Below, one piece after another: positions 8,048 to 63,006 of a stretch of DNA of 64,000 bases (its first letter is position 1; every line of letters begins with the position of its first letter). Source of the DNA: Deuterostichococcus epilithicus (Eukaryota > Chlorophyta > Trebouxiophyceae > Prasiolales > Stichococcaceae); the NCBI GenBank assembly GCA_033439295.1, contig JAVTLE010000010.1, positions 930,001 through 994,000 on the forward strand. Reading direction: 5' to 3'. The notes beneath the pieces were generated by a model that worked only from the letters and a program-made list of their open reading frames with translations, searched no databases and was not told the DNA's origin. The translations under genes were made by a program, and so were the position numbers.

Positions 8048-11000
8048 TCAGCTGCGCTCGGCGTTCGCCCGCGCAGGCGCCATCCGCACCACGTGAACAA
8101 AGCGCTTGTCGATGGCCTCCACGTTCTCGTTGAGCTGCAAGGAAACATTCACATTATTTTAGGTTGCCTGAAGTGATCAGACTTGAATACTAAATGACAT
8201 CATAGTTATTGACAGCGCACGGCAATGCCAGGCACAGAGCGACACTGCAGCGCATTACACCTGCAGCATCTTCTTGGCCTCCGCCACGGCTGCCACGTCT
8301 TGCGGCGTGATCAGGATCAACTGCGGGCATGACCAAGCAGCATTTGAACGAAGATGCCAGCTGCGAGAGGCAAGCCGACTGAGGAGCAATGCGGTGTGTC
8401 GCAGGATCGAGGCAGGATCATTCGATTTTGCAGGGATCAATGCAGATTCAGCACATTGCACACCTGCAGCTCGTGGCAGTGGCGAGCAAAGCCGAACAGC
8501 AACGCCAGGCTGACGGTCCGCGTGATGCTGCGTGGGAAACAAGGACGCATCAGCTTCGTTCGAGCCTGACCGCAAGGCGCACGCACTGTGAATACATCCT
8601 TGGTGCCGCCTGAACTTAACACGCGAGTTGCGAGGGATGGCTCGGATTCGGCGATCACCAACCTGTCAGCAAAGACGTCAAACTCGTCGAGCGCACGGAA
8701 GGGGCAATTTGCCCACTCGCCGATGGCCAGCGTCAGTGCCACAGTGGTAAAGGACCGCTCGCCACCTGCGGCACAAGGTTACCTGCATTCTGATCGGCCT
8801 TGCTCTAATTCACAGGGGACATCAGTTTCTCCACAGACCTCAGCATCAAAGTGTGGTACGCCTGACATATACACAATCTATTGCACCAGGGTTTGGCAAT
8901 TTCCTGCCCGGCTTTACTGGACGGGCAACCCGCACCTGACAGCTGCTTCATGTCCTTGACCTGGCCGGCCTTATCGCTGGAGCCGGCGACCTGCACCTTG
9001 ATCTCCAGCTTCCCGTCCTTGAGCGAGATGCTGCCCTGCAGCAGGGGCCCAGCGGTGCGGCGTCAGCCATGCGCATGGTTCTGTATTTGGCGCCGTCGCA
9101 GTTTGTCAAACTGCGGAGCCAGCGACAGGGAATTTCGTCTGGTGGACCAAAGCAAGAGGACCGTCAGCATTCTGCCTTTCGTCCAACTGGCCGCAGTGAG
9201 CTGCCAGGTGTAATGCGACAGGCCAGACAGCTCAGGCCAGACAGATTAGGCCAGGCAGTGGCGTATAGGACTAAGCTGAGCATGGAGCAGCAGCGGCCCC
9301 CTTGACGAATGCGCACCAGGTGGCCCTTACGCCCCATATGCTCCGCAAACGAGTTTTTCACCCTGCAAATGAACCGGACAATGCAGCATCAGTGTCACTT
9401 CTCCCGGAACACATGGAGGAGCTGTGATTAAGCCCGGCACCACCCTCAGCGCCCTGCTGGTCCAGCCGCGACCAGACCCTCGACTGAGTCCACTCGGCTG
9501 GCGTGCCGCCTGCATGCGTCTTGCAGATGGCAGCGTGACATGCTGCGCGTGGATCGACAGGATGCGACGGGGCCGCACCGCGCGGTGATCATCTTGGTCT
9601 TCTCGGTGAGCGCCTTGGTGCGGGCTTCATAGCCCTCCACTGCCACGTTGAAGGCGTCGACAACGTTGGCCATGCGCTTGTGCAGGTCGGTCTGCCGCCG
9701 CAGCGCCCGCTGCAGCTGGAGCTGCGGGATGAGATGGAGGGGAGCCGCATCAGCCCTGGGTTTTGATCTGACATGCGAACATGCCGTGCAGGCTTGGCAT
9801 CCGTCCACAGCAATTGGCGCTGTACGCTCGAATTGCAGGGTGCTGAGGAGGCACCCCCTTGCACAGCGCACAGCAAGGAGCACATGCAGAGAAGAAATTG
9901 ACTGCCGTGTGTCAGCGGTTACAATAATGCTCGAGTGCCTCGAGAGCATCTGCACAAGAGCACCTCCAGCTCGGGGGCGCTGCCGCCTGCCTCCTTCAGC
10001 TGCGCATTCATTCGGCGCTCCAGCTTCTGCCGCGCTGCGCTGAGACCCTGCGCAAGAAGCATGAGGCACGTAAGAAGAGTGAGGCGTGTCATCCTGCGAA
10101 GGCAGCACGGCTGCCAGCAGAGGAAGGCGCGAACGTGCGGGAAGGATTGGCGGGCACTGACAACATGCCGCGCAGGCCGCAGGCGGACCATGCATCGGCA
10201 GCCAGGCGCACAGAGGGTTGAGGGGACCATCATCTGGCCAAAACGGGAAACTGCGCACCAGCGGGCTGATGGGCAGCGGCACCGGGAGGTCGCCGCGCTG
10301 CGCGCCCGCCTCCACGTCTGCCAGCGCCTGCAGGCCCTGCTCCCGGCCGCACACCTGCTCTAAACAAAAGATGAGATCAGCTCCTATGTCCGGCAAAGAG
10401 AACTTGGGACTCCTCTCTGGACGCATGTACCGCATGCGGCTGCCAGGGTGGGGCAACCAGTGCGCAGGCAGTCACGAGCGGGGGCAGGCATCGACACGGC
10501 AGCCAAGGACTGCACCTTCTCTGCCAGCTTGCAGCTCCTGGAGTGCTGCTGGCGCTTCTCGGCCTGCACCGTCTCCCACTCCTCTTGCTGCGCGGGCAGT
10601 GAATCGAGGCGAGGTCAGGGTCATGCAAGCCAGTGCACGCTGTCTGTGCATTGCCATGGTCGCCCCCGCAGCCGTCCCGCCATCCGACTCAGGAGCAGCT
10701 GCACTCATGCTGCGACATCGCATCATGGGATCCTAGCTGGAAGCCGCAGAGCTGCATCCTGAGCTGATGTGTATCACTTCTCCATGGAGGTGTCTGACTC
10801 TCCACACACCAGGGCGGTGATCTGGTGACGGTTGGCCGCGAGGGCCTCGTGCTCGGCCTCCTTTCGGCGCAGCACCTCGGACCGCGCTGCCATCTCCGCC
10901 AGCCGCCGATCATTGGCCGCCTTCATCTCGTCGATCTCCGACCTGCATGGGATGGTCCGAATCCTTTCAAATTCAAAACACAAACGTACGATGATGTTCA

Positions 11001-14000
11001 TGATGCAGGCCTGTTCGGTGTCGAGCAGATCAGGAGCACGACTCGAGAAGGAGCTCAGCCGGCACGAGTGCGGCAGCTGCAAAACAAAATCTCGAGCGCC
11101 GCCGTGTGTTGCAGCGCTGGGCTGAATGGCAAGTCTGGAGCATCCAGCGTGTGCACTTAGGAAAACAGGTTTACGCCTTTGGGGATGGTTCCAGCTTCTA
11201 TGGAGGATACAATCTTCAGATCAAGAATCCAAGACGCACTTTTTGGCCTGGTGATCGGCGTCGGCAGACCGCTCCCGGGCGGCTGCCTCGCGCATCTTGC
11301 ACTCGTCCGCCACCAGCGACTGTCGGATGTCCCAGATCGCGTTCGTCTTCTCCTCGATGTCCGCCTGCATCGTTTCATGGAGATCAGAGCAGGCATCACA
11401 TTTGGGATACCTGCCACCATGCACCGCCTGACTGCCCCGGCTGACAGCAATGCCTGGTGCAGCAGCTGGCAGTCCTTGCCGCCGCCGGCTCAGAAGACTC
11501 TCCCGGTCGAGGAGCCTATAATTTGCGCGCAGCACATGGCAATGTGATTGGTGTGTGGTTTCCACCTGCAGGCCGTCCTGCTCTGCGTCATCGTCGCCAT
11601 CAGCGGGCGCTGGCGCCTGGCTCTGCGGCGGCGGCTGGCTCAGCGCCACGTCCAGTTCGTGACGGGCGCCGTCCTGTGCGGTCCAGGCGGGCACTCTGTC
11701 AGAGCTGCCGGTGTGACGTATGCAGCCAGGCTACGAGCCTGCCACTGCCGCTGGCCTGGCAGGCTCGTAGCCTGGCTGCAGAAACCGACCAGTCTGGCAT
11801 GCAAGTGGCTGCCTCCCAGAGACCGCTGGGCCTGTCAAAAGCAAGGCAGCACGCTACCATCATGCAAACGCCACACAAGCAGCGGCAGCAGCAGCCTGTG
11901 TGTGGCAGTGCATTGACGGAAATGGCCGATTCCGACACAGGCAGAGGCAAAGCAGCGGCGGAGTCTGCAGCAAGAGACGCAGCAGCAGCACCTGCTCCTT
12001 GCGGCAGTCGTAGACGCTCCGGCGCTCCTCATGCATACGCCGCTTCGCCTCATTGCGAACCTGCAGCAGCCGCGCCGTCTCCTGCTCCGCCGACATCACC
12101 TCCAGCTGCACATGAAGGGGCATCACCGGTGAGTTCGTCAGCATGGCACATCTGCATGCTGCAGGGTTCTGCTTTGGCGCGCTCAGGTGTTTCCAGCAGA
12201 GCATGCAATTGCGCTGGGGAGCAGCATACGGCGCAGCGTGTCCTGTGGGTCGGGCCCCGTCCCCTGCATCGAGCGGCGGCCTCCACAGGCGCAAAAGCCC
12301 ACAGCTGCAACTCGCTTTTATTGGGATCGCCACTTATGACGCACCTGGGCACTGGCCAGGTCCTCATCCAGGCGCCTGAGGAGGGCGGAGCCGTCCTCGC
12401 CCAGCATGCCGCGCCGGTAGTGCGCCTCCTTGTAGGGCACATAGCCCTGCGGGGCGATTGAGCCGGGTCAAAGCTGAGGTGCAATGAGCATGGCAGCGGG
12501 CTAAGCTTTATCCGTGTTGCAGTTCCTCTGCAGCTACGAGCTGCTTTAGGGTGCAAAGCCAGCAGGGGCTGGGCCTGGATCTGCTTTGACACGGCGGATC
12601 ACGGTGCCGTCACAGCATACGTGCTGTCACACAATGCCACACGAGGCAACAGTAGCAGGGCGACGTGCTGCAGCGCCAGACGCAAACACACCGTGGTGGA
12701 GTAGCGGGCATATCGCTTGGCACCGTCTTCGGTGAAGACGGCCGTCACATTGGGCGCGTGAATAGCCTTCTGCGCCTCGTCTGACCGCCCGCAAAGCACG
12801 ATCTTCTCGCACTTGAACTGCAGCACAGGGCATGAGCACGCTCACGAAGCTGCTGTGGCCTCTCAGGGCCTCAAATATCCCAGATGCCAGCATCACTGCA
12901 GGCATCACTGCAAGCCAAGCATGAGACACACAGGGGGCGTCCCCACTCCCTTCCCTTCTCAGGCTTCAGCCGCTTCCCTCCCTTCTCAGGCTCGAGCCGA
13001 GCAGGTACCGCTGTGTCCGCCTCACCTGGTCAACCAGCACGTTCATGACGGCGTCGCTGCGCTCGGCGTCGCAGGCCAGCGCCTGCAGCAGCGTCAGCAG
13101 CTGCGGCGGCGGCAGCCGCGCCGGGTGCATGCTGTGGCGCGGGATGTCGAAGCTGAGCACGCTGATGGACAGCCGCGCCCCGAGGCCCGCCTCGCGGCCC
13201 AGGCCCCGCAGCAGCTGCATGTCGTGCGCGTCGTGCACCAGGAAGTTGCCGAGGTGGCGGCCGATCGCCGCGTCCACCGCCTTGTTCCACCTGTGGAGCG
13301 ATCAGGGGAGATGACGCAATCTGCAGTTGCAGCACCAGCTGGAATGGCTGCAGGGCAATTGCAGGCGCTTGACTCTCGCTGCACAGTTCAGCACAAGTGC
13401 GCGACGCAGGACCCAACAGCTACCTGGCGTCTGTGAGCGACAGCACGGCGCCGAGCGGGCCGATGGGCTGCCGGTGGAAGCGGCCGGCCGCGGTCGCCAC
13501 GCGCGAGCACAGGTCCACCATGGCCGGCCCGCCGAACTGCGCCGCGCGGCTGCCCCTGTGCTGCTGCGCCTGCTGCTTCTGCCGCTGCAAATTGTCTGCC
13601 TGCACAACAGTACAGTGAAAGGTGCATGCCACAGGATGTCGGTTGGCAGCATGGAACCTGTTCTCGACCGCCAACAGCCAGTCGACAGCCGGGCTGAGGC
13701 TGGCCTGCAGTGGCAATGCAGGAACAACACCGCGGAGGCTCTGGCAGGCACTTCGCAGGCAGCGTGCAGCGCTGTGCCCAACGCTGACGCAGCCCTGCCG
13801 GTTCAGGTTTGGCGACCGGATTTGACAAGCTGCAGCCATGAATGCAGCAGTCGAACAGGACAGGAGGCGCACCTGGCCCTTACGCTGGTGCAGCGCCTTC
13901 TTGGCGGCGTGCTCGGCGTCGACGGCTTCCGTGTATGCGTCGTCGGCCTGCCTGCAGCGAGAATTAAGGGTGCAGGTTGAGCATCGCCCCTGCGGCGCCC

Positions 14001-17000
14001 AGCTGATGCAACTCGACAGCAGCTTCGTGTGCTGTGAGCCTTGAGGCAACTTTGCCACGAGCCGGCCTGGATGAACAGCGCCTCCACAATTGCAAACAGC
14101 CAAGTGTGTCCACACTCTGCGCCACTCTGATGGCACCGGGGGAACAGGCAACTGCCAGGGGTCGACGACAGGGCGGTGCACCCCCGCAGGCGACAGGAGG
14201 TCATATCAGTGGCAGCAGGCGCGCACTTGGCGGCGGCGTGCAGCTGGTCGCCGCGCTGCTGCAGGGCGTCTGCGCGCGCCTGCAGCCGCTGCACGTTGGC
14301 GTTGTACTCGGCGTTGGCCTCGCCCCACTCCGCCTGCGACTCCGCCATTGTCTCATCCAGCAGCTGCGGCGCAGGGCAGCACACGATGTGTTCAGGACAG
14401 TCCAAGTCACGACTCTGTGCCTAGGGATATGCGCACCCACTCCGCCTGCCACGCCGCCTTCGCCTCGTCCAGCAGCTGCGGCAAAGGCCGACATCATGGA
14501 TTCATGACAGTGCAAGAGGGGGGATTCGTTCTTGGGATGTGCACATTTACTCCGCCTGCGACTCCGCCACCGTCTCGTCCAGCAGCTGCGGCGCAGAGAT
14601 CATGTCGGATCAGAGATCACACCAGGTCGCTTCATCAAGTTTACGTGGATTGTATTCCGGTTTACGATCGTTGACAGCAGGACAAACATACAGTAATCTG
14701 TTCAGTTGAGCATCGTAATCTTCTGAGGTCCATGCACGAGGCGCCCGCTGGCCGGCGCTGCCCGCGCAGCTCACGGGCTGTCATTGTGACTGGGCTGTCC
14801 AGCGTCGCCATCGCGCTGCCGCCCGCGCTGCGCCACGGCAAGCTGTCGCAGAGCACAGCTCACTATGTTCTGCCCGCACGTCTCCCAGCCATCCCCTGAA
14901 CCAGTAGCGGACAGCCCAGCCAAGCTCTGCAGCGCCAGGCACACCCGGAAAAGCCGCTCACCTGCTTTTGCGTCTCAGCGATTTGAAGGTTCTCCTTCAG
15001 CCGCTTGATGGAGTTGTTGATGCGGCCGCACGCGCGCCTTGCCTTCACGTGCTCAGACTGCGGAAACGGATTTGAGAGGCGGCTTTCAAGCCACTTTGCT
15101 GCAGGCCTTTCAGGTGCAGACGGCGCCAATGCGCAATGCTCGAATTGCAGGTGCACAGTCTGCATCGTGCCATGCGACATGCATATTGTCGGACAGACAT
15201 GATGCCTGGCAGCAGGCAGCACCTGTAGCGCCGCGGCCTCCTCCGTGAGGGCGCCGACATCCTCGTGGAACGACTCCATCGCTGCTTGCTGCAGGCAGCG
15301 CACCCGGCAAGCATGTTCAGCTTGCCATGCTAGGCGAGAGGTGGACCCTGGCGACCCTGGCCGGTCGTTCTCACTTGAAAGCATGCCATTTGGCTGTGAT
15401 GCAACAACAGAAGACGACCGGCAGGAGACGGCCAACATGTCACGTGCCTGCGCCTTCAAGGCTCCTGACGCACATCGGTTTCTCTTCGAACACAAGGCGT
15501 GTGGAAACCAGCCGCCGCAAGGGGAAGGGGCACCTGCCGCACGACCTCGGCCTCCTGGGCAGCGATCTCCGCCTGCACCGAGTTCAGCGAGGCTTCAAGC
15601 TCCGCGCCGCCCATGGTCGCCAGCTTCCGCAGCTTCTCCTCTGCCGTCGTGATGTGCTCAGCGATCTCCTCCACCTGGCGGCAGCGGAGTACGTCCAGAA
15701 TCACCCTCCGCTGGTGCCGGACGTGCCTGGCATGCATGCCTTGCTTCCAATTGTGCAATGTTAGCATGACAAAACAGGCTTGCTGCACCGTCTCACACTG
15801 CAGGGCTGTGCCAGCCGCGTTGTGCAACTCCAAGGTTCTCGTTGGGCATTGACACAAGGCAAAGGCTGGCTTCATTGCAGGGAGCTCTGTGCCAGGCGTG
15901 CACGCATTGTATGTGCACGGCGAGAGCCTCACCTGAGCCCAGGCGAGCGCCCAGGTGATCTGCTGCGACTGCTCCCGCCAAGCCTCCACCTCCTGCAGCA
16001 GCACACAGCCACTGCTGGTTTGCAACACATGCAGCCACTCAACCAAACAACGACGGAGGTGTTCTCAGGGGAGCATGCCTCAAGCTGCGCAGGAGCTAGT
16101 CTTGACAACGTGGACGGCATCAGTTGCTGCAGAGTCCAAGGGTTTAAGCCTTCAGACTCAACGGAAATCATCAGTCGGCAGGGAGGGCACTTTGAGGCGC
16201 TCGATGCTGGCCGCAAGCTCCTTGGCCTCCTGCTTCAGCTTCTTGAGCTTTGGCTTCTCCGCCTGCAGGCAGAGCGCGCGAGGCGTCCTGGGGTGTCGCC
16301 GCTGCCCTTTTCCGGCTGGGTTCGTGCATGAGGAGGCCTCCTCATGCCGACGCACTACTGGGGTTGCTCTGCTGGCGCAGCCAACTGCACACATGCAACA
16401 TCTGGAAGGCAGCCTCAGGAGGAGGCTGCAAGGCACTGAGCTGGCACCTCGATGGCGTCGCCCTGCTGCCCGATGTATGCCTCCGCAGTCGCCAGATCCG
16501 CCTGCACCTTGGCCAGACTCGTCGCCTGCAGGAACATCGACTGTCACATATGAAGTTTGCGATGACGGTTCCCACTCAACACAGTCGGCACTCAGGCGCT
16601 GCGCATCTGCGGCTCTATAGCAGTTCCTGAAGCACGACATGAAACTCGCCTGCATGAAGAGCTCGTGCTTCTTGCGGTCTGATGCCTCGCCGGAGCCGCT
16701 GAGAAAGTCGCGAGCAAGGTCCTGCGTCATGACTGTGCAGCGGCAACGACACAGCATCAGGCTCGCTGCAGCATCTTGCCGCGACACCTCCAGCATTGGC
16801 ACGCCAACAAGGGCATTCGCAGTCCACGCTACAGTCGCTCAGCTGTGAGACATGCTTCGGAAGGAGCATGCACCGGCAATATGCGACGACTGATAGTCAT
16901 CATTGCATTGCGGCCGCCAGCCGACTGTGGAGACGGGCGTGCCTGCAATGGGGTTGGCCGCATCGATAGACAGGTGGTCGATGACTTCCAGCATCTCGTC

Positions 17001-19222
17001 GCGCGAGCGGCTCACGATGTTGCCGCGCTCGCCGCTCAGCATGTAGCCGCTGCCCGAGCCGGCCCGCCGCTGGATGGTGATGAACTGCCCGTAGACCTCC
17101 GGCCTGTACGCGTCCTCCCCGGTGTTCCACAGCGTCACTGCCACCTGGGGAGGCGGTTCAAGGATGAGAGGTCTGACTGATGTGGAGACCGAAGTGCGAG
17201 TAGACATGAGCAGCAGGTCCATGGGCGGCAGGTGAGGAGTCCTATGATGATGATGAAAGGTTGGAGTTGACGCATGGGCAGGAGGCTGCCGTGCAGCCTT
17301 CAACTGCACCAGCCGCTGGGCGGTTTGCTTGCCACCGTGAATCGAGGGCTGGACGCAAGCGTGCGGCATTCCCTCCTGACACTAGATGCACCCCTGCCAC
17401 CACTCTTGACAGCTGCCCTCCTCGCACAGTGCCCGCACCTTGGCCTCGTGGCAGCCGGACTTGACGAAGTTCTGATTGCTGCCCGCGCGGCCCGTCTTTG
17501 CCGCAGACACCCCCAGGCAGAACTGCAGCGCCTGTAAGACAGCGGACTTGCCGGAGCCATTGGTCCCTGCGCACACCCGGCGCAAGGAGTCGGTGACCCG
17601 GCAGCCTGCTCGAAGATCTTGCGGGAGACGCAGCAGTGCGGTGCACCGCTGCACTTGATCACTCGAGTGCCGGGTGATGTGGCGTGCACACTCACCTCAC
17701 CGGATATGAATGTGACGTGGGGCCCAAAGTCCATCTGCGCACAGTTTGAGAATGCTCTGTTGAAAGTGTTTTCAAGCGATTTTGCGCATGCGCTCTGGCA
17801 CTCCCAGCTTTGCAGCGGTGCAGACGCTCCAGAACTGCCTGACAACCACGCACATGTGCAGAGGACAGCAGACTCACCGTGAAGTGGCTGTGGCACATGA
17901 AGTTGCTCATGGTGATGCGGTACAGGTGGCCCGCCAGGCCACGCGTGCGCGTCCTGAAGCCGTCGCCGCCCTACAGAGACACAGGGTTCAGTCAGCGGAA
18001 GCCGCCCGGCTTTCAACAGCCCGCAAGACTGTGTGCCCACATGCACTGCCTCCCAGTCACATTGAGGAATGGTCTCACCGCTTCGGGGCTGTAGGGCGCC
18101 GGACAAGGAGTTGACGGACATACCTCAGCGTCCATCGGCTGCAGCTCGTCGCTGCCGGGCGGCATCGCGATGCGCAGACTGTCATCCACGCGCTCCCTTG
18201 GGGGCGCCCTGTCCCGCAGCCCGCCGCCGCCGCCGCCGCGCTTTTGCCGCTTGGGCGCCGGCGCTGTGAACGCATCCGGCTCCTCCAGGCCCGACCGCAC
18301 ATGCGCCCTGCGGCCGGCCGTGGGCGCGGGCGCTGCATTCTCCTTCCCATCTGAGGAGGGCTGCGAGGCTGCCGGCTGCGGCGCGGCCGCGGGCGGCAAC
18401 GCGGCTGCAGGCTTTCTGGCTGGCGGCGTGGCCGCGGAGAGCTGCATGCGGGCCGGCGCTGTCGCTCGCGCCGGCGATGCCCGGGCTGCGCCCTCCTCTG
18501 CACAGCAAGCGTGCCGTGGGGCGCATGAGTCAGGCATCGGCGAGAACGCTGTGCTCATGCGCCAGCAGCACTGCAAGCGTCTTGCGACGACTTCGCCGGC
18601 CGATTTACCTGCTGCGTCCTCCTCATAGCGTGACGGCCGTTTGATGTTTCGGCGCGTCATATCCTCTGTGGTTGTAGTTTTCACTCTGATCGCCGCGAAC
18701 GTGTCCCAGGTGACGTCCTCCTCATCGCCGTCTGCATCGGAAGAGGTCATGAAATGCGAGACTGCCAGGTAGGTGGACAGATGCCTCAGCAGCCAGCGAC
18801 AGATGCAATACAACAGTCTCTGCCACTCAAGTGCGGAACCCAGCCTGCAGCAGACTGAACGCAGCAGGTTGCAAGGATGCCGACGGTGGCAACTCCAGTT
18901 ACAGGTGCATGTTCGGGGGCCATCCAGGCGCGGACCTGTATACTTTATGTGAAGATGAAGCTCGCGTTTTTCCTTTCCGTTAATTCGAACCTTTCCGACA
19001 ACGTCGGTGACGGTGCCTGGAAAGAGCAAGGTTCCATGGATGTTTGGCTGGCAGGGGGTATCATGGCTTGCTATACTCTGAGCCATGCCGAAGGAACAAC
19101 CCTTGCTTTGACTGGCACCCACCTTCGAATGTGCCGTGTTTGCCGAAGTTTTTGCGGACCTTGTGTCCGATGTATTGATGCGCCAAGGTCACTGTAGGCG
19201 CTGGCTTGTCGGCCGTTGTCAT
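8048..19222 (-). CDS. SMC6: SMC6, structural-maintenance-of-chromosomes ATPase, with an N-terminal Tudor-like domain
   Basis: ATPase of the SMC5/6 complex for recombinational DNA repair. The head begins HLYRITMSNFMCHSHFT, then FGPHVTFISG, then Walker A GTNGSGKS split by an intron. SMC6-specific stretches follow: RPEVYGQFITIQRRAGSGSG, MTQDLARDFLSGSGEASDRK, long coiled coils, a hinge region near 12600-13280, then KDMKQLSG/GERSFTTVAL and Walker B RALDEFDVFAD, and the end RFVHVVRMAPARANAERS. Five 5' exons join in phase without stops: 19123-19222, 18936-19016, 18609-18731, 18124-18497 and 17878-17970. The first three encode YIGHKVRKNFGKHGTFEG...LHIKYTDGDEEDVTWDTF, a Tudor-like module. A disordered Ala/Pro-rich linker with PKRQKR (likely nuclear signal) joins it to the head. 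The start is the ATG at 19220-19222; an in-frame ATG lies about 107 bases further upstream. SMC6 identity is sure; the fusion rests on splice inference. Confidence 0.9.
11721..11780. repeat. Perfect 24-bp inverted repeat (hairpin) inside the SMC6 locus
   Basis: Arms 11721-11744 and 11757-11780 are exact reverse complements (inner part GGCTACGAGCCTGCCA) around a 12-base loop. It lies between SMC6 exons, so a transcript could fold into a 24-bp stem. It may be a relic of a small DNA element, a small-RNA precursor or a recent inverted duplication. Confidence 0.9.
14326..14591. repeat. Three tandem copies of an SMC6 exon start with its splice acceptor
   Basis: Copies at 14326-14369, 14438-14481 and 14548-14591 (periods 112 and 110) each contain, on the minus strand, the acceptor CCGCAG followed by codons for LLDE(T/A)xAExQAE. 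The copy at 14326 continues into the real exon (QAEWGEANAEYN). The middle copy reads LLDEAKAAWQAEW and is followed by a usable donor GTGCGC, making a possible 39-base in-phase mini-exon. The third meets a stop after QAE. The intron sequence between copies is also similar. Confidence 0.88.
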
Positions 19223-19812: not shown

Positions 19813-22800
19813 CTACAGCTTGGGCTGCATTGCAAGCATGGCGCGCTGGCGGCAGCCGCACGCGGTGCAGGTGCAGCCCGCTGCGCAGCGGCAGGCGCTG
19901 CCGCCGCAGCAGTTGTTGCGTGACACCTGCTCCTGCGTCGCGTGGATCTCCTCCTCGCGGGTAACGCCGCCGCCACCGCCGCAGCAGCCGCCGCCCACCT
20001 CGACGGACGCCTTGTTCGGGTTGGGCGGCAGGTTGATGCCCGGGTTGACCTCGAAGAAGTTGGCCGGCCTGGTGTGCGAAACTTGGAAGGTGAGGACGGA
20101 CATTGAGGGTTTGCGGTATGCAACATGGAGACAGCAGATGCGCCTTGTTGCGGCCCCCAGGCTTATGTAATCACATTGCACAAAGGGTGCAGACTCGAAG
20201 TGGGCCCTCAAGCAAGGACGCACTTGAGATGGAACGACGCGTATTCGCATGGCCTGCAGTGACGACAACGAAGTTTCAGTCGAAGCTTCATGTTACAAAA
20301 ACAATCTTGAATGCATATACTCTGCATGCAAGTGAAGAGCGGACAGCAGAACACAGGCCGCAACAGGCAGACAAGCAGCGACAGCGGGGGCGCACATGAC
20401 GGGGAAATCCTCCGGCCGCGGGATGTGTGTGACACCCTGCGGGATTGGCAGAATGGTCAGCGCCTTCAGCTGGGTCGAAAGCGTTCACGTGTGAAAAAGC
20501 GCGGACAACTACACGCTTGCAGCTGGACCAACTCCAAGTCCATGTGCAAGAGGACAGCAGTCACCATGGTGTGCCACAGGACGAGGTCCTTGCCGACCAG
20601 GCTGCGGTTGCGCTCTGTCCATTGCTCGATACCAACGGGGTTGGGCTCCAGCGGGTACAGCCCCGCCGGGTACAGCTCGTCGTCCGCGTGCGGCGTCACC
20701 CACAGGTGCTGCGCACAGGGGGGCAGGGGCGATTGCTTAGGACCCAGGCCTGGCCAGGCTCTCAGCTGAGGAGTGGTGTTTCTGATGTGCAGCAGAGACG
20801 CCATAGGTGCTGCAAGTGACACATGTCGAAGCTCGCAGATCAGAGGACCTCAACTGAGGAGTGCTTCTCATCAAAGCGAAGACTAAGAAAGAGGTCCTGT
20901 GAAGTCGAAGCATCACGCTTGTGTTCAGATGGCCCACTGACCGACGCCAGGCGGCCCCACAGCAGGCAGGTACAGCGAGACTGTCGCCGCACCTTGGTAG
21001 CGAACTTGCCGCGCCGGTGGTGCGTGCTGGAGGGGTTGGCGTACAGCGGCGGCGTTGGCCCTGGCGCCAGCTTCCAGGCCACAGGCTTGCCTGCGGCCGG
21101 ATTGCAAGAATCGCGGGTTTGCCAGCATGAGAGCCGGGCACAGTGTGTGATGCTGGCATGAGGGCTGTGCACATGCACAGTGCTTGCTGCCACCCTGACA
21201 GACGGCAGGTCGATAGGATGTCCATATTGCAATTAGCTGGTTGCAAACCACCGATACCAACCAGCAAGGAGAGGACAGTGTGCAGAGTGCATGATTCCAG
21301 AGACTGCTCAGGACAGCTAGGCTGCCGACTCACCGTTCATGGGGTTGAGGCTGGCAGGGTTGACCACCTTCCAGACGCGGCTCTTGGCGGCATCACCATT
21401 ACGCTGCGCTTGCTGCTCCGTCTTGAGCACCGTCTCCGTGGCGCAGAAGCCCACCCCGTAGGGGTTTGCCGGCCCGTCTGGCATCGACTCGCAATTCACC
21501 TGTTGGGGAATGGAGAACACGTGAATCAGAATGTGCTCAAAGTTGAGAGCAATTGTTGCCTTTGGTGCTGCAGCAGCTGCCACACATGGGTCAAGTACAG
21601 AAGGCAGCGCCCAGCGGTCAGCGTCAGCGACCTTCAGATTCAAGCCATCTCGCACGGTGAGCATGCACGAAGGCAGGCCTACTGCCAGGAGGACTGTGCG
21701 GCGCACGCAAGTTCCGTCTTGCGCACAGGGGTCGACACGTCGAGATCTTGGCCCAGAAAGCTTGCCGCATCAGGCATCGTCACGCATTCGACCCGGGCTC
21801 TAGCGTCCACCCACAAACACCTGTCCAACGGCCGAAAGGCACGTACAAGCGCGCCAGGCACTCTGCATCCCGTGGGCATGGCGCTCACCTCGACCGCGAT
21901 CAGGTTGGAGCCGCCGTTGTCGTCGTCACACGCCATGTCGAGGCGCACATTGAAAAAGTGCTGGTGGATCTGCAGTCACAATGTGTCGGCTCAGCATCCT
22001 ACTGCAGCCCGACAGCACGCCTGAACAGGCAGTTACACTGCTCTCTTGATGCCAGGTTCGACTGTGCAGCGTGCGTTCGACCCACCTGCGCATTCAGGTG
22101 CGGCGCCATGAGCACGCCAGAGTCGGGGTAAGGCCCCTCGCCCTCCGAAAGACCGTTGGTGGACAGGATGCCTGTCAGCTTGACCTCGTGCTCGATGCCG
22201 CCGTCTTGATAGAAGTACCAGAAGAAGCCGTCTGCGGTGAGCAGAGCGGACACAGGATCAACGAAGCAACCCAGCAGGATGCGCATGCAACACTGCAGCG
22301 GCAACAAGAGTAATATGGAAGGCCAACGCACTGCACCAGATATCGCACAGCCAGGCGCGCGGCGCTCACACTCGTAGTTGGCGATGGTGGCGAAGAAGGA
22401 TATGACGAGGCGGCGCGAGCGGCGCGTCTCCACGTGCTCCGTGCGATACTCCGTGTGCTTCCACAGCACGCCTGTTCTTGGCAGAAAAGGCGTCAACCAT
22501 CAGCGACCCAAGAGATGGCCTGGCCCCAGCGCAGGCCCCAGAGCTGGCCGGCTTTGGCTGTGTTGGCTGCAGGGTGGAGGCAGGCTGGACCATGGGCTTC
22601 CTCTGTGGTGCAGAGCGGGGCACTGGTGGCAGCTCTCAAGCATGGCACACAGGCAAGTGTGACCAGTCTGCGAGCGGGCTGGAGGAAGGCGCACCGTAGT
22701 CCTCCTCGTGCATGCAGATGGCCTTCTTGATGACCATGGGCTCGCCTGCAGCAGGGGAGTGCACTATCCTGTCAGAGAGGGTCACGTGGAAGGCATGTTG

Positions 22801-60200: not shown

Positions 60201-63006
60201 CTTTCGGGTGGCCGTCGCTCACGAAAGTGGACATCACCAGCGGCGAGGTCAGCCCCTCCTCAGCCACCAGCACGGCGTCCCCCAACGGACTGGCCCAAGC
60301 TGGAGAACAGCGGCATGCGGCACAGTCCGTCGACCAGCGGCAGCGCACCGCAGCCAGCCAGCCAGCCCCCAGTGGTTGCGCGTCAGAATTAGCGTCAGGC
60401 TCTGCGGCAGCGGCGCCAGCTTCGCCGGCGCCATTTGCGGCGGCAGAAACGGCTGCGGCGGCGGGGTCATCGGTGGCCAGCGAGGCGGCGGGGCGGCAGT
60501 TTTCCGGCGATGGCGGCAGCTCAGCAAGTGGGCGAGTAACGATCGACATGGTGACGCAGCGGTCGCTGTCGCTGACGGTGCGGACGGCGCCCAGCGAGGC
60601 GCAGCAGGGCGATTCACCTACCGTCTGGTGAGTCATTGGGACACTTTCATTCGAATCGACCCAGCTTCCGACCTTGACCAGATCTGTCACCTCACATGCA
60701 GCAGTGGGCGCCGGGCTGCAGCCACTCGCTCAGCGCGACCCTGCCCGAGATGATTCACAGGGGCTGCAGTCCTGCGCTGGGCCGCCGGATCTGACCCTGA
60801 TCTGCAGCTCAGGCTCTGCAGGCTGTTGCCGGGGCGGGCTCCGCAGCGTCCAGCCTCCGACTCTGTCTGGTCTCCATCCCTGCAGCCGCTGGGCTGCGCA
60901 GACCTCTCCGCTGCGGCCCTCGAACTGCCACTCGCAGTTCTCAGTTCGTTTGCCCTACCCGACTGCAGGTTCGACGATGAGGGGACGCCCATGTTCCACA
61001 AGTCGCTGAGCGAGGTGCCGGCGGGGCTCACGCCCATCCGGACGCGCTCCGACGACTTCGAGGCAGAGCTGGCCGACACCCGCGGCCGCACCGCGCCCTC
61101 TGCGCAGGTGAGCCCCCCCCCCCCCCTCCCCCCTCCCCCTTCCTCCCNGCGGGCGCCCGACAATACTGCATTGTGACAACCCCTTGCTGGCAGCTCGTGC
61201 ATTTGGGGCTCAGCCTGTGATGGGGTATGTCCTCGAGCTTGCTGCAGAAACATCCTAGAGTGAAGGCCAGTTCTTTGCCGCCGCAGTTCAAGACTTCAGA
61301 AGGAACCTCAAGCGTCCCACTCCACCGCCTGGAGTGGCACACTGTCATGCAGCCGATGACAGACTTCCTGACGCAATACAACGCGCCACCCCGCAGGCGG
61401 GGCCCAGCAGGGGCGGGGACGCGATGGCGGCGCTGCCGCCGCAGTCCTTCTGGAGCGCCTTCAGCCACATGATGTTGGACATCGGCTACGTCTCGCGCGG
61501 CCCCGAGCAGGGCGCCTTCTGGATGGCCATCTGGATCGCGTTCTTCAACCAGGCAGGTTCCTCCGCCCGCGGCTGTGCCGGCTGTGCAGGCATCGATGTT
61601 CACGTCCCCTCGCAGCAGGAGTCATTGCGCCCCGCACAAGGGCTGCCTCCCAGCTTAGCTGCCTCCCCTGATGCGCCCCATCGTGCATGCGCCCCTGCAA
61701 GGCAGCAGACCGTAAGGTCACCAGGCGCTGGTGGCAGGCCAGAGCGCTGGATGTTGGATGGACCTTGACAGACGGTTCGACAGGCGTCTGATGGCGCTAT
61801 CCATACGATCAGGCGTGCGCATCGACGTCCATCATCAACTACGCCCCGGAGCTGCTGGAGCAGGCGGGCATGCGGCGGCACGCCGACTCCATCCTGTACT
61901 CCTCCGGCGTCGGCATCGGCAAGGTCCGTCGTGTCACATAGTTGAGAACGTCTGTCCTGCCACATCCTTGAGGAAGCAAGGCTCGTCATCCGTCCCTCCC
62001 GCCCCTTCTGGCTCGCGGCTCACCTGGATGGACCTGCTGCACGAGTCTCAGAATGCAATCATCAGCGCTAGACGACCCCGCCGTCATGTGGTCATCAAAC
62101 AGGTCATCGGCGTGCTGAGCGCGCTGCTGCTGGTGGACACCGTCGGCCGGCGGCCGCTTCTGCTGCTCGGCAGCGGCGTCACGGCAGCCGCGATGGCGGT
62201 CATCGCGGCGTCGGACGCCTCCGGCAGCTGGGCGCTGGAGCTGGCCGCCATGTGTGCCTTCATGCTGGCCTTCAGCATCTCGTGGGCCGGCATCTTCTGG
62301 GTCCTCATGTCCGAGCTGTTCAGCATGACGGTGAAGTCGCCGGCGGTCGCCGCCGCCACCGCCGCCGCCTTCTTCACAGGTGTGTCTAAACATCGTTTCT
62401 GCCCACCTGTTGCTCAGTCCCGCCTCTGCCTGCACGTCTCCTGCTTTGCGCGCGCCTGCGTGCGTGCATGGGTACGACCCCTGTCGCAACGTGAGTTTAG
62501 CTATCTGCAGACATCTCACCCTGGGACTCCTCGTGGCTGCAGGCGCCATCACAGATGTGGTGTTTCTGGCGATGCACCGCTGGTTCGGGCCGTTCAGCTT
62601 CCTGGTGTTTGGCGCCGTGTCGGCGGCAGGCGGTGTGTACGTCTACAGGAATGTTCCGGAGACTAAGGGGAAGACGCTGACTGAGGTGCAGGCGCTGCTG
62701 CGGGCGCTGCACCCGGACGCGGGTGCGCCAGCCCCGCTTCCTCTGCCGCGCTCTCGCCGTCCTTGGCGTGGCCTTTGCGTGTCCTTTGCGTCGTGTGCAC
62801 TCGTGTGGCAGATGAGGCGGCCGTGTGCGATCCGTGCGCTGGAGCGTTTCGACACGTTGCAGCCTTGGACCGTGTCATCGGCCGCTGACTTGACGGCAAG
62901 GTCTGATGTCGTGGTCTTCGCTGATGCCGCAGGTCCAGACGCGCAGCAGAATGCCGCCGTGCCGCTGTTCAGCCTGGCAACATTTGCCAACAGAGACATC
63001 CCTTGA
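57235..63006 (+). CDS. Major-facilitator sugar transporter, tonoplast (TST/TMT)-like
   Basis: Proton-coupled sugar carrier of the sugar-porter family. N-terminal half: MLWRIAAFAALGGFLFG, YDLGVMGGALLGISDEMV, ACFGAFLGGALMLHYGRRIA (loop 2-3 GRR), LIFGRLLVGLGIGVSAVVVP, AYLGEVAPAAARGTIVELFE and the post-TM6 motif AALFLLPESPRWLVVNGRLD. A very long hydrophilic loop follows (from about 58600 to 61430), rich in Ala, Gln and Ser and including VVWQDYDIPFGWPSLTKVDI. C-terminal half: MAIWIAFFNQA, SIINYAPELLEQAGM, LLLVDTVGRRPLLLLGSGV, SISWAGIFWVLMSELF, GAVSAAGGVYVYRNVPETKG. The long central loop between TM6 and TM7 is the hallmark of plant TST proteins. The family is sure. The splicing of the loop, and the last exon (its frame stays open to 63006), are uncertain. 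One base (61147) is undetermined. Confidence 0.85.
58927..59235. repeat. Three copies of an exon start in the sugar-transporter loop
   Basis: Copies at 58927-58958, 59051-59107 and 59176-59235 share GCAGCCA(A/G)GCCAGCAC-type sequence. The last is the real acceptor and exon (ASTAEVEQELLELWSAV). The middle copy keeps GGAGCAGGAGC and GCTGTCA, but its frame reads Arg-rich (ASTRRRRSRSRW). Periods are about 125 and 130 bases. Confidence 0.8.

Follow-up and report, generated by a model that had tools for sequence, protein, structure and literature searches.

A Tudor-like domain at the N-terminus of SMC6 in Deuterostichococcus epilithicus and other green algae, a candidate built-in methyl-lysine reader

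The 64,000-nucleotide stretch of contig JAVTLE010000010.1 from the green alga Deuterostichococcus epilithicus analyzed here (the window; coordinates are positions within it unless a contig is named) carries on its minus strand a gene for the Smc5/6 subunit SMC6 in which a Tudor-like domain precedes the SMC head. The gene model, obtained by dynamic programming with hand correction (two GC-AG introns, exon 2 and the Walker B exon), comprises 37 exons from 19222 to 8048 (-) and encodes 1327 residues (Table 1). An earlier note on this DNA had proposed that five leading exons with GT-AG borders keep one frame without a stop and lead from a Tudor through a PKRQKR-containing linker into the SMC6 head. 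The first part holds, as all five exons have GT donors, all but the start exon have AG acceptors, and their join leaves frame 0 open across 257 codons, with several stops in each of the other two frames. The fusion itself is confirmed by the full-length gene model and by homologues with the same domain order.

Several features of the locus qualify the five-exon join. Introns 2 and 3 (204 and 111 bases, respectively) are both divisible by three, and no stop interrupts the genomic frame between 19188 and 18016, making two of the four in-frame junctions weak evidence by themselves; judged by eye, GTCCGC makes a poor donor for exon 2; and four more in-frame ATGs (19327, 19489, 19510 and 19528) lie upstream, as does a stop (19597). 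The frame argument being weaker than it first looked, the whole gene was modelled. Left unaided, the program skipped exon 2, which was restored by hand because it completes the Tudor. Support for splicing comes instead from homology, as the spliced form yields a conserved YxDGDxE strand, and the ATG at 19222 puts the Tudor at the position it has in homologues. The two GC-AG introns, in the SMC6 head (donors 16942 and 16649, -), were inferred so as to preserve the conserved stretches NPIAVMTQD and FMQATSLA, and the short coiled-coil exons, such as 14585-14571 and 14475-14437, are uncertain. Upstream on the same strand lies a Cys-rich open frame (19813-20268, -) that looks metallothionein-like by eye and has no Pfam match; it ends at 19813 and hence does not run on into the Tudor exons.

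Table 1. Features of the D. epilithicus SMC6 gene and other Tudor-like exons of the genome
Feature	Position	Strand	Content	Evidence
Exon 1	19123..19222	-	Start ATG 19222; first part of Tudor YIGHKVRKNFGKHGTFEG; cage residues F26, F32	Open frame, GT donor, Tudor profile (residues 14-78), ligand columns
Exon 2	18936..19016	-	Tudor middle TVTDVVGKVRINGKEKRELHLHIKYT; cage residue Y59	Open frame, splice borders, Tudor profile, ligand columns
Exon 3	18609..18731	-	Tudor end (D61 split across junction, D63, E65) and linker start	Open frame, splice borders, Tudor profile, ligand columns
Exon 4	18124..18497	-	Low-complexity linker; PKRQKR (residue 183), by eye resembling a nuclear signal	Open frame, splice borders; matching region disordered in Trebouxia model
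Exon 5	17878..17970	-	SMC6 head start HLYRITMSNFMCHSHFT	Open frame, Pfam, PDB match
Exons 6-7	17439..17734 (17734-17701, 17566-17439)	-	Walker A GTNGSGKS, residue 269	Gene model, Pfam
Exons 8-37	8048..17144	-	Remaining SMC6: head, coiled coils, hinge, stop at 8048	Gene model, PDB match
SMC6 hinge	13599-13424, 13290-13026	-		
LSGGERS and DEFDVF	9035-8936 and 8765-8663	-		
Other Tudor-like exons (L001-L008)	C9:1412042, C11:2680688, C19:114149, C1:538048, C7:494596, C19:109585, C4:1366444, C19:1887853			

The body of the protein is that of SMC6. Pfam identifies SMC_N (E 1.6e-24) and AAA_23 (E 3.3e-19) in the full protein, with the hinge at 20.7 bits, below its cut-off of 22.5; the SMC6 motifs GTNGSGKS, LSGGERS and DEFDVF are all present; and SMC6 chains head the PDB matches (E 1.7e-77, residues 208-1296 of the query). 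Head ATPase, hinge and C-terminal signature occur in one protein that is closest to SMC6 among SMC proteins. Solved SMC6 chains (9lwi, 8i4x and 7qcd) have the same order of head, coiled coil and hinge, but the near full-length ones align only from query residue 208 or 237, and five named land-plant SMC6 matches have 34-48 residues ahead of Walker A and no Tudor. An SMC-like match on contig C12 was considered as SMC6 and rejected as SMC1-like by eye.

The N-terminal extension had been likened in the earlier note to PTM/DIR17-type Tudors, and profile searches favour that assignment. The corresponding family, PF21743, matches residues 13-80, reaching 26.2 bits (E 6.8e-6) on the 92-residue N-terminal piece against a curated cut-off of 27.2, and weakens in longer queries to 22.3 bits (257 residues) and to 18.1 bits (E 0.0023, residues 19-71) in the full protein. 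The D. epilithicus Tudor and several other SMC6 Tudors score below the cut-off, with P0042 (27.7 bits), P0099 (33.0 bits) and, by precomputed Pfam tags, 8 of 103 homologues above it; at E <= 0.1, 15 of 16 Tudors from SMC6 proteins match the family (best 2.5e-13). A profile of chlorophyte SMC6 Tudors from whose seed D. epilithicus was kept out recovers its Tudor at E 2.4e-15 (49.3 bits, residues 14-78), and a single one of 2080 shuffled SMC6 sequences reached E < 1e-3 (2e-4, 14.2 bits); by these profile scores the match is more than chance. When 16 SMC6 Tudors were combined, the profile found the tandem Tudor of UHRF1 at E 2.3e-4 (23 sequences at E <= 10) and, more weakly, SETDB1, a DUF724 protein that is presumably Agenet-type, RDM15, the lamin-B receptor and one unrelated enzyme. 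A further profile, A4, ranked the RDM15 structure 7de9 first (E 0.0092), a post hoc result because A4 was assembled after 7de9 had been seen. Single-sequence PDB searches gave nothing usable for the 92-residue N-terminus and no match for the Tudor of the second paralogue described below, and Pfam at E <= 1 found no PDS5-type domain in D. epilithicus SMC6.

Structure prediction is also in favour of the Tudor assignment. AlphaFold2, supplied with a Trebouxia SMC6 of 749 residues and 22 relatives, this orthologue standing for the D. epilithicus protein, predicts a confident five-stranded small barrel of Tudor type (strands 34-39, 48-62, 68-78, 83-86 and 95-97; predicted local distance difference test, pLDDT, of 77-92 for the block at residues 11-100) on a disordered linker (pLDDT < 50 at residues 103-243 and 245-258) that leads into the head; the whole model has a mean pLDDT of 69.3 and a predicted template modelling score (pTM) of 0.32. 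A Foldseek search with this whole model returned only SMC/Rad50-type chains in the best 50 of 678 matches and could not test the Tudor, so a free-standing 133-residue metagenome Tudor, P0106, was folded instead. P0106 comes from a short Tudor profile search (three proteins at E <= 0.01) and is much like the D. epilithicus Tudor (GRKVKKCFGKHGYFEG vs GHKVRKNFGKHGTFEG); in its model, residues 11-70 form a block with pLDDT 86-96 and four strands of at least 3 residues are called. Foldseek placed RDM15 with H3K4me1 (histone H3 monomethylated at lysine 4; 7de9) first, at E 0.033 and level with Tudor-SN, followed by the PHF19 and PHF1 Tudors; myosins and a designed barrel were mixed in, and no match reached E <= 0.001. 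This structural ranking is unaffected by the post hoc choice of A4. In VIA-align, Spindlin1 (6.3), RDM15 (6.0) and unrelated barrels (6.2) were all tied, and MSH6 was not in the structural match lists, which carries no weight either way. With so small a barrel (some 55 residues), the comparison of models shows that the fold is Tudor-like and does not identify a ligand.

Having been noted in D. epilithicus, the fusion proves not to be peculiar to that species, which corrects the earlier note, and it was found in other Trebouxiophyceae and beyond. Two homologue searches yielded 25 and 88 proteins, 103 of them different, making 104 with D. epilithicus, and counting with a profile from 13 seeds located an N-terminal Tudor in 24, always within residues 1-104. 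The 24 carriers are D. epilithicus, six others and 17 named green algae: Trebouxia (three entries), Myrmecia (two), Apatococcus, Micractinium (two), Chlorella sorokiniana, Chlorella vulgaris, Chlamydomonas schloesseri, Pleodorina, Raphidocelis, Tetradesmus, Scenedesmus (two) and Tetraselmis sp. GSL018. Walker A lies at a median position of residue 255 in carriers versus 107 in the others, and the lowest profile scores among carriers are 17.8 and 15.7 bits, compared with 14.2 for the best shuffled sequence. Among the 104 proteins, no named land plant, fungus, animal or Dictyostelium has the Tudor; the 80 non-carriers, some visibly truncated, include the chlorophytes Volvox, Botryococcus (named from its Joint Genome Institute code) and Tetraselmis chuii, a transcript grouping with T. 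chuii, and metagenome relatives. No report of a Tudor in SMC6 was found among the listed titles and abstract openings in the open-access literature searched; precomputed Pfam tags already expose the combination in databases, and the source names shown make no mention of it. Two of the carriers' gene models, P0001 (Tetradesmus, 1547 residues) and P0042 (Scenedesmus, 1776 residues), also have PF04628 attached to SMC6 (with PF04099 in P0001), domains that we take to be sedlin/sybindin-type and that reflect either a real fusion or merged gene models.

A second, more diverged SMC6 with its own N-terminal Tudor occurs in Myrmecia and Trebouxia sp. C0005 (P0041 and P0040) and also in D. epilithicus, on contig C1 at about 1085481-1096900 (-; L018, L020 and L021). 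The Tudor exons of this paralogue read AFEGAVVHKWWEEGPDWEAGWYEGEVV... and YEDGDEADYPWAEIF, and its cage has W and Y; with Pfam alone, the contig C1 Tudor reaches just 12.2 bits (E 0.16) and the P0040 Tudor goes unmatched. A tree built from the heads puts the second-paralogue clade (91/82) outside the clade of first paralogues and Chlorophyceae (97/97), and therefore the fusion probably precedes the SMC6 duplication. P0099, a Tudor carrier, groups with land plants (86/86), and on this one sequence, with moderate support, the fusion may also be older than the split from land plants. D. epilithicus SMC6 is placed in this tree without support, branches are long, and the contig C1 head was joined by eye. 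That two adjacent genes have been read as one, or that the fusion is an annotation artefact, could appeal to the upstream ATGs, the weak exon 2 donor and a join known here from genomic sequence alone; yet the order of Tudor, linker and head recurs in gene models of many algae and in the second D. epilithicus paralogue, leaving this explanation scarcely credible. Chance and the two-gene reading were rejected on these homologues and the second paralogue, and the fusion is not an artefact of the D. epilithicus assembly.

The closest guide to a ligand is Arabidopsis RDM15 (AT4G31880), an H3K4me1 reader that we take to be PDS5C and whose Tudor (7de9) shares with the SMC6 Tudor the fold and, in kind, all six ligand positions compared. 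The RDM15 cage is built from Trp616, Tyr623 and Tyr641; the monomethylammonium group is held by Asp643 and Asp645, and H3 arginine 2 (H3R2) by Glu647 together with Gln654 (PMC8184781). Leaving Gln654 outside the comparison, the aligned D. epilithicus residues are F26, F32, Y59, D61, D63 and E65. They keep the RDM15 pattern of three aromatic residues, a pair of Asp and a Glu, with Phe taking the place of the Trp and of one Tyr; the main SMC6 paralogue has Phe where RDM15 has the cage Trp. Across 24 SMC6 rows the first aromatic is F in 16, W in 3 (all from the second paralogue) and a gap in 5, and the second is F in 12, Y in 8, W in 1, L in 1 and a gap in 2, this column being poorly supported in three truncated rows (P0004, P0008 and P0044). 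Tyr and the first Asp are present in 24 of 24, the fifth position is D in 18, E in 4 and Q in 2, and the sixth is E in 22, D in 1 and A in 1. Judged by this alignment, SMC6 Tudors preserve the kind of residue at the six positions. P0106 shares the D. epilithicus ligand residues, which are therefore a hallmark of this type of Tudor and not of SMC6. The architectures differ, with the Tudor at the C-terminus of a non-SMC body in RDM15 (PMC8184781) and at the N-terminus of an SMC body in D. epilithicus, which places the latter outside the RDM15/PDS5-type class.

These observations lead us to favour, with moderate confidence, a built-in methyl-lysine reader, H3K4me1 being the best candidate mark, that tethers Smc5/6 to marked chromatin. 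The SMC6 subunit would carry its N-terminal Tudor on a linker that is about 145 residues long and probably disordered, and the Tudor would read a methylated lysine on a histone tail, binding H3K4me1 as in Arabidopsis RDM15: F26, F32 and Y59 would form the cage, D61 and D63 would hold the methylammonium and E65 would hold H3R2. Given this linker length, the reader could stay bound to a nucleosome as the SMC6 head engages DNA, and Smc5/6 would thereby accumulate on marked chromatin with no adaptor protein in between. A lesser though serious possibility is that the Tudor reads another methyl mark (H3K36me, H3K9me or H4K20me) or a methylated non-histone protein. The sequence profile is closest to UHRF1, presumably an H3K9me reader; Foldseek matches further include the complexes of PHF1 with H3K36me3 and of BAHCC1 with H4K20me1; Spindlin1 with H3K4me3 comes first among histone complexes in VIA-align; and the cage aromatics differ between the two paralogues (F/F versus W/Y). 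Pointing back to H3K4me1, the positions that coordinate monomethylammonium in RDM15 are acidic in 24/24 and 22/24 rows, and the H3R2-binding acid is present in 23/24.

Readings in which no methylated ligand is involved fare less well. The Tudor could be a protein-protein module within Smc5/6 or a dimerization domain, and no function for DIR17-type Tudors was found in the open literature searched; this is improbable, as the ligand-facing columns are among the most conserved in the Tudor and the long linker, disordered in the model, would suit a tether better than a rigid contact. Even less likely is that the domain adds nucleic-acid binding to SMC6. Some Tudors are reported to bind DNA (PMC6222470), and the D. 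epilithicus Tudor has a net charge of +2, but among 19 full-length SMC6 Tudors 16 carry a net negative charge and one is neutral, D. epilithicus and Chlamydomonas supplying the two positive ones.

The reader that we favour would matter for an open question, the placement of Smc5/6 on chromatin, which has been studied mostly through adaptor proteins. In vertebrates, recruitment via the adaptors RAD18 and SLF1/2 links Smc5/6 to a histone mark through separate proteins, whereas the algal SMC6 would have its putative reader built into the subunit, making the question directly testable by single-residue changes. Damage resistance and silencing both fit known Smc5/6 roles. A review on Chlamydomonas assigns H3K4me1 to the promoters of silent genes and to transgenes, and the mark in algae need not mean gene bodies, correcting the link to genes drawn in the earlier note (PMC6952782). 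The same review describes the Chlamydomonas mut9 mutant as having less phosphorylation of H3 threonine 3 (H3T3), less H3K4me1, lost silencing and sensitivity to damage (PMC6952782), a phenotype in which the effects of H3T3 phosphorylation and H3K4me1 are confounded. If the proposed reading is true, the SMC6 Tudor would be a candidate H3K4me1 reader for algal silencing and DNA-damage resistance. In Arabidopsis, the Tudor of MSH6 (PMC12292046) and those of MSH6 and PDS5C (PMC13361950) are reported to bring repair to H3K4me1, and this plant theme would then extend to an SMC motor. Plant MSH6 resembles the algal SMC6 in being a repair protein with a Tudor, one described as an H3K4me1 binder (PMC12292046), but it belongs to mismatch repair and is not an SMC protein. 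A wider and distinctly speculative proposal draws on the grouping of P0099 with land plants (86/86), the paralogue clades (91/82 outside 97/97) and the mut9 phenotype, with its confounded marks: the SMC6 Tudor would make H3K4me1 both a repair and a silencing mark in algae, and the two anciently duplicated paralogues, one with an F/F and the other with a W/Y cage, would give rise to two Smc5/6 complexes that differ in their chromatin addresses.

Elsewhere in the genome, eight other Tudor-like exons (Table 1) all score below the Pfam cut-off, some of them weakly, and two lie ~4.6 kb apart on contig C19. Within the window, a Pfam scan of eight open frames, the Cys-rich one included, gave one match at E <= 1e-3, an open frame at 61731-62663 (+) that matches sugar transporters (PF00083, E 3.4e-15).
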